A DNA stretch of 64,000 bases, taken from Marinospirillum perlucidum (GTDB taxonomy: Bacteria; Pseudomonadota; Gammaproteobacteria; Pseudomonadales; Halomonadaceae). Every line of letters starts with the position of its first letter. Positions within the stretch are counted from its first letter, which is position 1. Positions 34,210 through 41,951 of this stretch are shown piece by piece. Both the position numbers and the translations under genes were made by a program. The notes under the pieces were generated by a model, which ran no database searches, was not told the origin of the DNA, and worked only from the letters and a program-made list of their open reading frames with translations. The stretch lies in contig NZ_QFWJ01000003.1 in NCBI RefSeq assembly GCF_003336805.1, positions 186,001 through 250,000 of the forward strand, given 5' to 3'.

Positions 34210-34476
34210 GAAAATCTACTCCGAAAGTTACGGGTTAAGCCTCCATATACCCCAGACATCAACTCGGCTGACTTGCAGTTTGCAGCCTGAGCACCCAGAT
34301 GACTGTGCCGGTATATGTGTGACGTTATTAAGCCCTATTAAAGGGCAGGTTTTTGCTCAAATCAGCTTCCCCTAGGGAGCGGTTAGCAGGGTGTTTGCCT
34401 TCGGCTAACCCTTGCCGTATCCTTCGGGGGTTAATTTGAGCGCGCACTTTATAGCATAGTCCCGCGTGAACATAAA
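34210..34476 (-). promoter_or_regulatory. rpsB promoter and about 230-base structured leader
   Basis: On the minus strand a -10 box TATAAA (34448-34453) is followed by a G/C-rich discriminator GTGCGCGC, the mark of stringently controlled ribosomal promoters; a weak -35 TTTATG lies at 34471-34476 with a 17-base spacer. The leader from about 34440 to 34210 is rich in hairpins (for example GGTTAGC / GCTAACC at 34381-34411, and GCCCTTTAATAGGGC near 34335-34349) and ends with TTTCGGAGTAGATTTTC before the ATG. Such leaders bind S2 in E. coli and relatives. It also fills the 309-base gap between rpsB and map. Confidence 0.6.
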
Positions 34477-38036: not shown

Positions 38037-39236
38037 GTGAACCCTGCTCTGGATCAGTTGCACCCTTATCCCTTTGAAAAACTGGCTAAGCTGACAGCCG
38101 GTGTTAAGCTTCCCGAAAACCTGAAACGCATTGCTTTTACCATAGGCGAACCCCAGCATCCGGCTCCTGAAGCCGTGCTGAAATGCCTGCACGAATCCCT
38201 GCCACTGGTGAGCAAATACCCGGCAACCAAGGGGATCCCCGAATTGCGTCAAGCCATTGCTGACTGGTGTCAGCGACGCTTTCATCTGGATGCCCAGCCA
38301 CTGGACCCGGAAACCCAGGTATTACCGGTCAATGGTACCCGTGAGGCGCTCTTTGCCCTGGTTCAGGCCGTTGTCGACCGCAGTCGGCCGGCCCGGGTGG
38401 TCATGCCCAACCCCTTCTACCAGATCTACGAAGGGGCCGCTTTGCTGGCTGGTGGCCAACCCCATTACCTGAATGCCACTGAAGAAAACGGGTTTCAGCC
38501 GGATTTTGATCAGGTGCCCGCTGAGGTTTGGCAGGAAACTCAGGTGGTTTTTCTCTGTTCACCGGGCAATCCCACCGGTGCTTTGCTTTCTGCCGAGCAG
38601 CAAAAGAAGCTGATAACCCTGGCTGATGAGCATGATTTTATTATTTGCGCCGATGAATGCTATTCGGAAATCTATTTTGATGAAGACCAACCCCCTCACG
38701 GCCTCTTGCAGGTTTGTGCAGAAACCGGGCGGCAGGATTACCGCCGCTGCCTGGTCTTTCACTCCTTGTCCAAGCGTTCCAACCTGCCGGGCCTGAGATC
38801 GGGTTTTGTCGCCGGGGATGCCGAACTGATCCAGGCGTTTCTGCGTTACCGCACCTACCACGGTTGTGCCATGCCTTTGCATCATCAGCAGGCCTCGATT
38901 CTGGCCTGGGGCGATGAAGCCCATGTCAAAGCCAACCGCGATCTCTATCGGGCCAAATTTGATGCCGTTCTGGAGATACTTCAGCCGGTAATGGATGTGC
39001 AGCGTCCGGATGCTGGTTTTTACCTCTGGCCGGCGACGCCAACGGATGATGAAGATTTTACCCGCCGCCTGTTGGAATCCCAGAATCTGGCGGTTCTACC
39101 GGGGCGCTACCTGTCACGTGAGGTCGGGGGGAGTAATCCTGCCAAGGGGCGTATCCGCATTGCGTTGGTGGCTGAGCTGGAAGAGTGCATTGAAGGGGCA
39201 AAACGCCTGCGGCGTTTTATTGAAACAGGCTGCTAA
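38037..39236 (+). CDS. dapC: Succinyldiaminopimelate transaminase
   Basis: 399-residue PLP aminotransferase (fold type I) that uses glutamate to aminate N-succinyl-2-amino-6-ketopimelate in lysine/diaminopimelate synthesis. The PLP lysine is in FHSLSKRSNLPGLRSGFVAG; ADECYSEIYFDE carries the Asp that contacts the pyridine nitrogen; FLCSPGNPTGALLS and GRIRIALV are other class I/II motifs. GTG start at 38037 with CAGGAGA upstream. The context glnD-dapC-arsC-like-dapD matches Pseudomonas. A dispersed repeat begins at its stop codon. Confidence 0.94.
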   Translation: MNPALDQLHPYPFEKLAKLTAGVKLPENLKRIAFTIGEPQHPAPEAVLKCLHESLPLVSKYPATKGIPELRQAIADWCQRRFHLDAQPLDPETQVLPVNGTREALFALVQAVVDRSRPARVVMPNPFYQIYEGAALLAGGQPHYLNATEENGFQPDFDQVPAEVWQETQVVFLCSPGNPTGALLSAEQQKKLITLADEHDFIICADECYSEIYFDEDQPPHGLLQVCAETGRQDYRRCLVFHSLSKRSNLPGLRSGFVAGDAELIQAFLRYRTYHGCAMPLHHQQASILAWGDEAHVKANRDLYRAKFDAVLEILQPVMDVQRPDAGFYLWPATPTDDEDFTRRLLESQNLAVLPGRYLSREVGGSNPAKGRIRIALVAELEECIEGAKRLRRFIETGC

Positions 39237-39427
39237 GAAACCCCTGATTAACTATTGCGCTTGGTAATGCTGTGTTGAAACTGGCCTCAAAATGCTCATT
39301 TACTTCGTGTAAACTCCGCTTTTTCGTTCAGTTTCGCTGGCGACCTACACGGATGTAGGAAGTGCTGGAATTCATAAGGAATGAATTCAGCCCTGACCTG
39401 CGCTCATGACGTTACTCAGAGGTTTCT
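39236..39427 (+). repeat. Dispersed repeat, copy 1, with two GGA-loop hairpins
   Basis: 192 bases, about 80 percent identical by eye to the copy at 41733-41926. Imperfect terminal inverted repeats AGAAACCCCTGA (39236-39247) and TCAGAGGTTTCT (39416-39427) match at 11 of 12 positions. The first half is a conserved stretch (GATTAACTATTGCG ... AACTCCGCTTTTTCG); the second half holds two hairpins: CCTACA-CGGA-TGTAGG (39344-39359) and GAATTCAT-AAGGA-ATGAATTC (39368-39388). It begins on the last base of the dapC stop codon. No coding capacity. Confidence 0.85.
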
Positions 39428-39445
39428 AATATCCGTGCAGGCGGT

Positions 39446-39590
39446 GCGGGGTGACTTTTGTCAGGCTGTCTACAACAGGATGTTGTAGCCGACCCACATG
39501 GAAGTGGGAAGTGCAGGCATTCATCAGGAATGAATTCTGCCAGAGTTTACAGGGATGTATTCACGCGTCGTGACAAAAGCTTACCCCGTA
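39446..39590 (+). repeat. Inverted-repeat-bounded element with four GGA-loop hairpins
   Basis: 145 bases closed by terminal inverted repeats of about 18-20 bases (CGGGGTGACTTTTGTCA at 39447-39463; TGACAAAAGCTTACCCCG at 39571-39588). Inside are four successive hairpins with GGA in the loop: CTACAACA-GGA-TGTTGTAG (39470-39488); CCCAC-ATGGAA-GTGGG (39493-39508); ATTCAT-CAGGA-ATGAAT (39519-39535, extended by GCAG/CTGC); TACA-GGGA-TGTA (39548-39559). As RNA the last reads UACAGGGAUGU, a full match to the core of the CsrA/RsmA binding consensus. No promoter or T-run terminator is evident, so it may act within the dapC-arsC transcript rather than as a separate RNA. Confidence 0.75.
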
Positions 39591-39628
39591 CTGATCTAGC
39601 CAAGTTTTTTGTGACAAAAAAGGTTAAA

Positions 39629-39976
39629 ATGCTGACCCTTTACGGAATACCCAACTGCAACACCATGAAAAAGGCACGTACCTGGCTGGATGAAAATCAG
39701 TTGGAGTACAGCTTTCATAACTATAAAAAATCCGGGATCGATGCCCCGACCTTACAGAACTGGATCGGTCGGGTGGATTGGGAGCTGCTGGTTAACCGCC
39801 GCGGTACCACCTGGCGCCAACTGCCTGAAGCGGTGCGCCAGGCAATTACTCGGGATTCGGCAGTGCAATTGATGCAGGAAAATCCCAGTCTGATCAAACG
39901 CCCCGTCGTGGATGATGGGCAGCAGTTGCTGGTGGGTTTTGATCCCCAAGTCTGGCAGGCACAGCTCCTGTCTTGA
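39629..39976 (+). CDS. ArsC/Spx-family reductase (YffB-like)
   Basis: 115-residue thioredoxin-fold protein of the ArsC family. The N-terminal YGIPNCNTMKKARTWL contains the single active Cys; the C-terminal half has IKRPVVDDG, the conserved loop, and GFDPQVWQ. It resembles E. coli YffB and the ArsC-like gene found between dapC and dapD in Pseudomonas; true arsenate reductase activity is doubtful because the family usually needs three downstream Arg residues. The start at 39629 is chosen by family N-terminus; upstream in-frame sequence is the repeat element. Confidence 0.9.
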   Translation: MLTLYGIPNCNTMKKARTWLDENQLEYSFHNYKKSGIDAPTLQNWIGRVDWELLVNRRGTTWRQLPEAVRQAITRDSAVQLMQENPSLIKRPVVDDGQQLLVGFDPQVWQAQLLS

Positions 39977-40068
39977 AGACCTGATTATTCAACAAAGGGC
40001 CTGCTGCCAGGATCCAACAGGGCAGTAGTCCAGAATTTCATTTTTTATCATTTCAAGAGGATAGATTG

Positions 40069-41106
40069 ATGAGTAAGAAACTTTTTGCCTGTGGTCTGGG
40101 CGTCGGTACTCAGAATACTCAGGGCGAATGGCTGGAAGTCTATTATCCACAGCCTCTCCTGAACCCTGACGAGGAAGTGGTCAAGGCCCTGGCAGAAGCC
40201 ACCGGTTATGAAGGCGGCAACCAGGTGCTTTCTATTACAGCCGATCGTCTGGAGCCTCTTTCGGAAGCACTGGATGCAGCCCACCGTCTGGATCTGGCCG
40301 TTATTGCCCAGCAACTCAAGCGTAGCCACCGTCCGCTGGTTGTAAGCCTGTTGGAAGAAGACAAGGAGCCGGAAACTGCTCCTGAAGTTTACCTGAAGCT
40401 GCACCTGCTTTCGCACCGTCTGGTGAAACCCCATCAGGTTAATCTGACCGGTGCCTTTGGTCTGCTGAAAAACGTGGCCTGGACCAGTGACGGCGCCATT
40501 GATCTGGAAGAACTGACCCAGCGTCAACTTCAGGCGCGGATGGAAGGCAAGATCCTGACCGTGGAAAGCGTGGATAAATTCCCGCGCATGTGTGATTACG
40601 TGGTTCCTGAAGGTGTGCGTATTGCCGATACGGCCCGCGTTCGTCTGGGTGCCTACCTGGGTTCAGGTACAACGGTCATGCATGAAGGCTTTGTTAACTT
40701 CAATGCCGGTACGGAAGGCCCCAACATGATTGAAGGCCGTATCAGCGCCGGTGTCTTTGTCGGCTCCGGTTCTGACCTGGGTGGTGGCTGCTCGACCATG
40801 GGTACCCTGTCCGGTGGTGGCAATATTGTTATTTCCGTGGGTGAAAAATGCCTGATTGGTGCCAATGCCGGTATCGGTATTCCACTGGGTGATCGCTGCA
40901 CTGTGGAAGCTGGCCTTTATATTACGGCAGGCATGAAGATCACTCTGCTGGATGACAAGGGTGAGGAAGTGAGCCAGGTGGCTGGTCGTGCCCTGGCTAA
41001 CCAGGATGACCTGCTTTTCCGTCGTAACTCCAACACTGGCCGTGTTGAGTGCCTGGGTAACCGTTCAGCTGTTGAGCTCAACGAATCCCTGCACGCCCAT
41101 AACTGA
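40069..41106 (+). CDS. dapD: Tetrahydrodipicolinate N-succinyltransferase
   Basis: 345-residue left-handed beta-helix acyltransferase that succinylates tetrahydrodipicolinate, two steps before DapC in lysine/diaminopimelate synthesis. It is the longer Pseudomonas-type form (E. coli DapD is about 274). The helix region runs from about residue 180 (VPEGVRIADTARVRLGAYLGSGTTVM) with EGFVNFNAGTEGPNMIEGRI and GSGSDLGGGCSTMGTLSGGG, followed by GEKCLIGANAGIGIPLGD. ATG at 40069 is preceded by AAGAGG. Confidence 0.95.
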   Translation: MSKKLFACGLGVGTQNTQGEWLEVYYPQPLLNPDEEVVKALAEATGYEGGNQVLSITADRLEPLSEALDAAHRLDLAVIAQQLKRSHRPLVVSLLEEDKEPETAPEVYLKLHLLSHRLVKPHQVNLTGAFGLLKNVAWTSDGAIDLEELTQRQLQARMEGKILTVESVDKFPRMCDYVVPEGVRIADTARVRLGAYLGSGTTVMHEGFVNFNAGTEGPNMIEGRISAGVFVGSGSDLGGGCSTMGTLSGGGNIVISVGEKCLIGANAGIGIPLGDRCTVEAGLYITAGMKITLLDDKGEEVSQVAGRALANQDDLLFRRNSNTGRVECLGNRSAVELNESLHAHN

Positions 41107-41362: not shown

Positions 41363-41734
41363 ATGAAAATGCTCAACCGTTCTGCCATCAGCGTCAAACT
41401 CAGGCAGCCTTTTGTTGACTGGATCAACAGCATAGATGGCGGCGAAGAGGAAATGACTCTGGAAGAGGTCAACCAGGAAGCGACTATCTATCTGGTGCCT
41501 GAGCTTGAAGATGACGAGGAGAGTCTGGAAGCGCTACTGGAAGAGCGTTACCTTGATATTCTCGAGAATGAGCTCTTTTCCTGGGAGGAAGACGAAAACA
41601 ACTGGCCGGAAGAGCTGGATCGTAACCTCTTTGATGATTTCATCCGTATTGAACTGGCCTTTATGGCTTTTGATCTGGACGATCAGGCGCCGCTGATGGG
41701 GCAGGTTTTGGATGAACTGGAAGACCTTGACTGA
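41363..41734 (+). CDS. Small acidic protein of unknown function
   Basis: 123 residues, not recognised as a named family. The sequence is very acidic (more than a third Asp or Glu), with two blocks: KLRQPFVDWINSIDG near the N-terminus and FDDFIRIELAFMAFDLDDQAP near the C-terminus, which look like conserved helices. No signal peptide or membrane helix. CGGAGA lies nine bases before the ATG. It lies between two copies of the dispersed repeat, and its TGA stop overlaps the first bases of the second. Context near dapD is the only functional hint. Confidence 0.8.
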   Translation: MKMLNRSAISVKLRQPFVDWINSIDGGEEEMTLEEVNQEATIYLVPELEDDEESLEALLEERYLDILENELFSWEEDENNWPEELDRNLFDDFIRIELAFMAFDLDDQAPLMGQVLDELEDLD

Positions 41735-41926
41735 AAACCTCTGATTAACTACTGCGTATTGGTAATACTGCGTTGAAATTGACCTCAAACTGCTCATTTA
41801 CTACTTGTAAACTCCGCTTTTTCGGTCAATTTCGCTGGCGACCTACATGGATGTAGGAAGTGCTGGAATTCATCGGGAATGAAATTCAGCTCTAACCTGC
41901 ACTCGTGACGTTCATCAGAGGCTTTC
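41733..41926 (+). repeat. Dispersed repeat, copy 3, with two GGA-loop hairpins
   Basis: 194 bases in the same orientation as copy 1. Terminal inverted repeats GAAAACCTCTGAT (41733-41745) and ATCAGAGGCTTTC (41914-41926) match at 12 of 13 positions. It carries CCTACA-TGGA-TGTAGG (41842-41857) and a slightly decayed GAATTCAT-CGGGA-ATGAAATTC hairpin (about 41867-41888). It starts inside the stop codon of the preceding small gene, like copy 1 after dapC. Confidence 0.85.
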
Positions 41927-41951
41927 TAGACTAAATTCCCTCAAGTTGGCC

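Follow-up and report, generated by a model that had tools for sequence, protein, structure and literature searches.

A probable CsrA/RsmA-type hairpin cluster in a Marinospirillum genome, apparently delivered by two families of dispersed elements

The antagonists known for the global regulator CsrA/RsmA are limited to a handful of dedicated small RNAs. Each of these sponge RNAs, CsrB/CsrC and RsmX/RsmY/RsmZ, is the product of one sRNA gene that has a promoter and a terminator of its own, and carries several GGA-loop hairpins at CsrA-dimer spacings. In published work, the high-affinity CsrA/RsmE site is described as a hexaloop ANGGAX placed directly on a stem (PMC4005645), the SELEX consensus is given as RUACARGGAUGU, with ACA and GGA present in all ligands, bridging by CsrA is reported over 10–63 nt, best above 18 (PMC7652899), and the CsrA/RsmA binding motif is catalogued as RMfam RM00005 (PMC4383904). 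Three further systems are close to the subject. The TwoAYGGAY motif is listed for Gammaproteobacteria and Clostridiales by Weinberg 2010 (PMC2864571); CsrR1/CsrR2 of Alcanivorax are two predicted, defined sRNAs (PMC9788540), unlike the dispersed repeat family described here; and the authors of a study of the 5'tnpA sRNA of IS200, likewise a transposon-derived RNA regulator, note copies of GGA in it and suggest testing CsrA, although this sRNA, unlike the present elements, is part of a transposase transcript (PMC12594629). A search of full-text literature, with most subscription journals outside its scope, returned in the text it covered no report of dispersed or MITE-borne arrays of CsrA sites.

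The locus considered here lies in a 64,000-nt stretch of DNA (the window) that comprises positions 186001–250000 of contig 18 of the 3.07-Mb host genome, which is assembled in 24 contigs. It is flanked by a dapC-like aminotransferase gene (38037–39236) and an ArsC-family gene (39629–39976). Folding of the region 39436–39606 yielded exactly four hairpins, all of which present GGA in the loop (loops at 39478–39480, 39498–39503, 39525–39529 and 39552–39555), enclosed by a long outer stem in which 39437–39466 is paired with 39567–39600. A preliminary description of this DNA had reported a compact element with four GGA-loop hairpins, at coordinates correct within about 10 bases, and the shuffling control confirmed it: none of 1000 dinucleotide shuffles contained four such hairpins, while three were found in 3 shuffles, two in 7, one in 160 and none in 830. 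The fold of 39430–39610 has an energy of -70.8 kcal/mol (z = -4.58), and none of 200 shuffles was as low. The distances between successive GGA starts in the array are 22, 27 and 26 nt.

The fold, the shuffles and the comparison of related copies revealed that the focal element (39437–39600, plus strand, as are all features listed here) combines two elements that each occur dispersed, designated B and M, with module M placed between the two hairpins of element B. From left to right, the composite consists of the left arm of the outer stem (39437–39466), which belongs to element B and is specific to the copy, hairpin Ba (39470–39488, CTACAACAGGATGTTGTAG, GGA at 39478–39480), module M (39490–39541), hairpin Bb (39546–39561, TTTACAGGGATGTATT, GGA at 39553–39555) and the right arm (39567–39600). 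Within module M, the fold and the alignment of copies define hairpin 1 (39493–39508, loop ATGGAA, GGA at 39500–39502) and hairpin 2 (39515–39540, loop CAGGA, GGA at 39527–39529). Comparison within the genome showed that this module is 85% identical to another copy (39341–39392, plus strand), which is held by a 190-nt miniature element (MITE), element A, recognised by its sequence and by comparison of elements directly upstream of the focal element (39237–39426, plus strand).

Searches with Rfam sRNA models (CsrB, RsmX/Y/Z) found no match in the window or the region, and the RsmZ model RF00166 had none in the whole host genome, in a search where control genomes matched only below the cut-off; membership in the CsrB and RsmZ families was rejected on these grounds. 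The preliminary description had also pointed to TwoAYGGAY, which resembles the locus in having hairpins with GGA loops; the covariance model RF01731 matched neither the window nor the region, and a whole-genome search gave no match in the host or in its control genomes. Rfam also recorded a t44 RNA at 34234–34339 on the minus strand (69.9 bits). By sequence, the array agrees with CsrA sites, which display GGA in the loop of a hairpin, ideally as ANGGAX seated on a stem, and M hairpin 1 and Bb mostly have the form ACA-n-GGA-n-GU, which is the reported high-affinity form. The host carries one csrA gene, the only match above the Pfam cut-off, encoding an intact protein; lack of a csrA/rsmA gene was among the outcomes that the preliminary description had named as counting against its reading.

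Unlike the Csr/Rsm sponge RNAs, the hairpins here are found in dispersed repeats beside genes, and the focal locus has no promoter-like site. In the region 38900–40150, no promoter-like sites were found against 1.0 expected, and five terminator-like sites were found against 1.5 expected, counts that do not point to a dedicated sponge gene at this position. One of the terminator-like matches (39432–39450, plus strand) lies between element A and the focal element, over the left arm. Together with the excess at the locus, and with the fact that sites between convergent genes are the commonest for module M (58 of 178), this match would suit an interpretation of the hairpins as terminators or insulators with incidental GGA. 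However, none of the focal GGA hairpins is among the terminator-like matches, and such an interpretation, which we regard as very improbable, leaves the conservation of GGA amid drifting stems unexplained.

In its usual form element B has the order GTCAGGCTG, hairpin Ba, GAGC, hairpin Bb and CACGCGTCCTGAC, inside a long outer stem. Matches were obtained in 6 of 58 genomes searched, the host included, all of them Marinospirillum. For the comparison, 38 copies were counted after 7 of 45 rows had been dropped (six reverse-strand reads of true copies and one partial); the focal copy is not among them because module M breaks the search expression. GGA occupies the loop of Ba in all 38 copies and that of Bb in 36, with the proviso that the first BLAST query contained GGA and thus introduced a slight bias; tallies from a looser scan for B consisted largely of noise and do not enter these counts. 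The base that follows GGA varies (C, A, T or G in Ba; T, C or A in Bb), as does the one that precedes it. The outer arms behave differently from the ends of a transposon. The left arms of the 38 copies have a mean identity of only 0.35 (maximum 0.75), while the mean duplex energy of arms is -29.6 when both come from one copy and -13.9 when they come from different copies, and in 36 of 38 cases a left arm pairs best with the right arm of its own copy. Since the arms are copy-specific and still pair within each copy, they are a maintained stem, and transposon ends, as which the preliminary description had taken the enclosing inverted repeat, were rejected as its identity. Template-switch correction of quasi-palindromes is a mechanism that maintains paired arms, and it is possible that the arms of element B have been kept in this way rather than by selection, which would leave the GGA unexplained. 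In one copy (L277), hairpin Bb is interrupted by an inserted hairpin-bearing stretch.

Module M is more widely distributed. A query of the host genome with 39440–39600 gave 32 matches, 28 of which fall inside 39490–39541, and the host copies are 79–90% identical to the focal module. The 52-nt module consists of the hairpin CGACCYACAnGGAnGTRGG, followed after the spacer AAGTGC by a second stem that closes a loop of 5 nt. Further copies were sought with a loop-free pattern, GCGACCNACNNNNNNGTNGGAAGTGC, in which neither loop is fixed and the AC and GT flanking the six free bases of loop 1 are fixed; for the family search, GCC was additionally required further on. This strict match was found in 36 of 275 family genomes, representing 4 of 24 genera and, within the genus Marinospirillum, only the host and one other genome (G004); it was absent from the other 239, and the reversed-pattern control had no match in the same 275 genomes. 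A slightly shorter pattern matched 2 of 369 genomes in a class-wide sample (29 matches in the host and one in the other genome). A scan of a named collection yielded at least 108 stretches; among the matches listed (80), most belong to Billgrantia, Halomonas and Salinicola, with a few each from Shewanella, Paraglaciecola, Pseudomonas, Marinospirillum, a Methylococcaceae MAG, other MAGs and a Solemya symbiont. A match in Mycolicibacterium (L179) lacks the structure and was excluded as a chance hit from the loop, alignment and strand counts. The copy at 39341–39392 had no match in plasmid and phage collections and the loop-free pattern had none in viral contigs, on the basis of which a phage or plasmid origin was rejected. 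For 13 loci at the margin of the main group or beyond it, Rfam at gathering thresholds reported only 5S rRNA and tRNA.

Although the pattern leaves loop 1 free, GGA is in place in hairpin 1 of 112 of 118 copies from outside the host genome (distinct by context). The composition of the six free positions in these 118 copies is A 114; T 51, G 58, A 7, C 2; G 117; G 115; A 116; and T 102, C 8, G 6, A 2. The positions that are free here are those that are free in the published consensus, so module M varies just where CsrA is reported to be indifferent. Inspection of the surroundings of M revealed two other hairpin arrangements. In some Halomonadaceae elements (L163, L195, L196 and similar loci), an extra hairpin, for example AAATCGGC-TTCCCT-GCCGATTT, is seen upstream of M, and since its loop reads as GGA on the opposite strand, GGA loops would be present there on both strands. 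In two Pseudomonas loci (L173 and L181), M hairpin 1 is followed by another string of GGA hairpins (CTCCATGGACGGAG and others), which could be a separate type of array.

Hairpin 2 offers a stronger test, because the search pattern leaves it untouched and its stems are unrelated between lineages. In the Halomonas group the stems are GGCCCGT/ACGGGCC, GGTTCGT/ACGAACC and TTCGTGT/ACACGAA; those in Shewanella are TAAATTGC/GCAATTTA, in the Solemya symbiont GATTTC/GAAATC, and in Marinospirillum GAATTCAT/ATGAATTC. In 70 in-register copies from other genomes, the three loop columns have G in 70, G in 68 and A in 69 copies, and the majority base in the central stem columns reaches only 0.44–0.54. The alignment of M comprised 97 sequences (27 from the host and these 70), after 12 of 109 distinct modules had been dropped as out of register, with fewer than 5 of the 7 hairpin-2 pairs; the figure of 97% paired obtained for this alignment is raised because these modules had been removed beforehand. 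Among the 12 were two without GGA in hairpin 2 (L165, L241), two decayed host copies (L044, L102) and the two Pseudomonas loci with another arrangement (L173, L181). In the alignment, both sides of a pair had changed in 213 cells, compared with 59.6 in shuffles, none of 500 of which had as many, and such double, compensatory changes are present in all seven pairs. An automatic hairpin finder placed GGA in the best hairpin-2 loop of 103 of 118 copies. On visual inspection, register or competing hairpins account for several of the 15 misses, but two copies (L202 and L241) have truly lost GGA. Compensatory stem changes with the loop GGA kept, which the preliminary description had proposed as a check, were seen in copies across genera.

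In both hairpins of the module, the loops are held to the CsrA consensus while the stems and the free loop positions drift. The alternative that the copies are alike merely because they are young, with no function, would agree with the 79–90% identity of host copies to the focal module. However, divergence is seen in the stems, in the free loop positions and in the third hairpin of the MITE described below, and GGA has not diverged, and the hairpin-2 stems are wholly different across genera, making recent copying a most unlikely sole explanation. With GGA held, stems compensating, variation at the consensus-free positions and an intact csrA, the putative CsrA/RsmA-type array of the preliminary description is upheld, and the sequence evidence supports well the identification of the loops as candidate CsrA sites, which very probably act as RNA.

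Most host copies of module M sit within element A, which has terminal repeats GAAACCTCTGATTAAC and GTTAATCAGAGGCTCC. Among 51 elements A, 27 carry no M (mostly 140 nt long), 21 carry one (mostly 190 or 112 nt) and three carry two (239–240 nt). Both features that define a MITE, terminal inverted repeats and target duplication, were found; an exact 4-bp target duplication flanks 17 of the 51 elements. YTAR targets are typical of IS5, and flanks fitting YTAR are present on the left side in 28 of 51 and on the right in 31 of 51. Element A thus shares terminal inverted repeats and 4-bp YTAR-like duplications with IS5-type MITEs, and differs from them in its optional GGA-hairpin modules (none, one or two). 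No match to the transposase domain DDE_Tnp_1 (PF01609) was found in the 24-contig host assembly. The element next to the focal locus starts immediately behind the stop codon (TAA) of the dapC-like gene, and a TAA is also found beyond the element's other end. Another element A in the window (41735–41928, plus strand; G000:C18:227735–227928) adjoins with its start the end of the preceding ORF at 41734, and it contains a module M at 41839–41890 (plus strand), identified by comparison within the genome. An internal control is provided by the hairpin TTTAC-loop-GTAAA in the middle of element A, which has 18 loop forms in 38 host copies; GGA occurs in its loop in none of the 38 on that strand and in three on the other. 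The palindrome GCTCATTTAC-n-GTAAACTCCGC in the middle of element A (e.g., at 39260–39340) is part of a wider repeat family: a query with element A had matches in 19 of 38 genomes from several genera and families, many of them covering the middle part only, with different terminal sequences.

The suggestion of the preliminary description that a mobile element spreads CsrA sites is supported for module M, which travels in a MITE with target duplications, and not for the focal inverted repeat, which is no transposon end. Association with a MITE also raises the question of whether the GGA loops are needed at the DNA level, as single-stranded hairpins read by a transposase or a recombination protein, in which case their conservation would reflect mobility and not CsrA. 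The exact duplications (17 of 51), the lack of a significant strand preference of element B and the two B elements that are inverted relative to the same genes are compatible with this. Against it, exact duplications are found in 10 of 27 elements without M and in 7 of 24 with M; M-less elements have them about as often, so M does not look needed for moving. In addition, loops that fit the CsrA consensus and vary at its free positions occur in two families of different sequence, and module M prefers the sense strand, as detailed below. We consider a DNA-level role improbable.

Altogether, the region is probably a CsrA/RsmA-type hairpin cluster delivered by two dispersed element families, whose transcripts would serve as a CsrA sink and as CsrA-responsive mRNAs. 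These families appear, judging from their sequences, to scatter ready-made CsrA docking sites through the genomes of Marinospirillum, Halomonas and a small number of other bacteria. On transcription of an adjacent gene, the hairpins would fold in the untranslated part of its transcript, and CsrA dimers could bind pairs of loops 22–27 nt apart. Transcripts of the 29 strict M copies in the host and of the B copies might then jointly form a distributed CsrA sink, an outcome to which we assign slightly less than an even chance, and the carrier mRNAs would become responsive to CsrA, in stability or read-through more than by blocking of the start codon. That the arrays act mainly by local control is a more tentative proposal. 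Equally tentative is the broadest version, in which mobile elements spread CsrA sites, build a genome-wide distributed sponge and rewire the set of CsrA-responsive mRNAs, with element B also turning over in place, so that from one species to another its sites would enter or leave the sense strand of a given set of genes. If this is true, mobile DNA would be linked in an unusual way with gene control at the RNA level: repeats seeding high-affinity CsrA sites would offer a direct route from transposition to a changed post-transcriptional network, dispersed sites would constitute a hidden pool of binding sites to be added to models of CsrA titration, and the arrays would provide natural replicates, with dozens of loci, both orientations and inverted orthologous sites.

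The positions of the elements relative to genes bear on these possibilities. Module M was placed with a home-made codon-based gene caller and element B with a cruder home-made one, and since copies are related, the counts are not independent events. Of 178 modules M (28–29 from Marinospirillum, the rest from other genera), 53 lie in sense and 23 in antisense orientation between co-directional genes, 58 between convergent and 27 between divergent genes, 13 inside an ORF and 4 at an edge. After shared neighbourhoods had been merged (161 modules placed, 132 neighbourhoods), sense positions prevailed by 43 to 17 (p = 0.0011), alongside 50 convergent and 22 divergent ones; a cruder caller, with fewer loci, gave 19 and 10 for sense and antisense. 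Such a bias points to a role as RNA. For element B, 19 sense, 14 antisense, 4 convergent and 1 divergent positions were counted and the bias is not significant, so a sense-strand rule for all elements, true of M, was rejected. The strand parity of B suggests a role independent of one particular neighbour, or one outside the neighbour's mRNA altogether. GGA in hairpin 1 of M is about equally frequent on both strands (50 of 53 sense and 21 of 23 antisense copies). In element B, it is present in all 19 sense copies for both loops, and in 14 of 14 (Ba) and 12 of 14 (Bb) antisense copies; both lost Bb loops are thus antisense (2/14 vs 0/19), too few to weigh. Among MITEs compared in the same way, 20 without M, too small a control, include 3 sense, 7 antisense, 2 convergent and 8 edge positions, and 18 with M include 3 sense, 2 antisense, 10 convergent and 3 divergent ones.

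A further possibility is local cis control of the adjacent gene, through translation, mRNA decay or Rho-dependent termination via CsrA, selected site by site. The sense bias of M speaks for it, as does the recurrence of element B between corresponding pairs of genes in several species, where it keeps its orientation at the three sites compared: paaJ–paaK, ppsA–rraA and upstream of sufB (gene names at the compared B sites come from reading of the translations). However, common descent of B is not established at the paa site and for one suf pair, where the similarity of the arms does not exceed background. Moreover, M is most often convergent (58/178), and the distance from sense modules to the next called start is broad, 25–992 nt, which makes start-codon blocking unlikely as a general mode. 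We regard site-by-site local control as rather unlikely, given also that at two other sites element B takes opposite orientations relative to the same genes in two Marinospirillum species, one site with thiamine-transporter genes and the other with a heavy-metal-domain gene and a copper ATPase. The inverted pairs (L276:1476–1586, on contig 6 of the host, with L298:1454–1564, and L270:1469–1579 with L277:1430–1566) have arm identities of 0.71 and 0.75, compared with a background of 0.29 (maximum 0.62), and it is possible that they arose by flipping mediated by the inverted repeats. At four loci (L270, L273, L285 and L299), an element B in sense orientation precedes the next called start by no more than about 75 nt.
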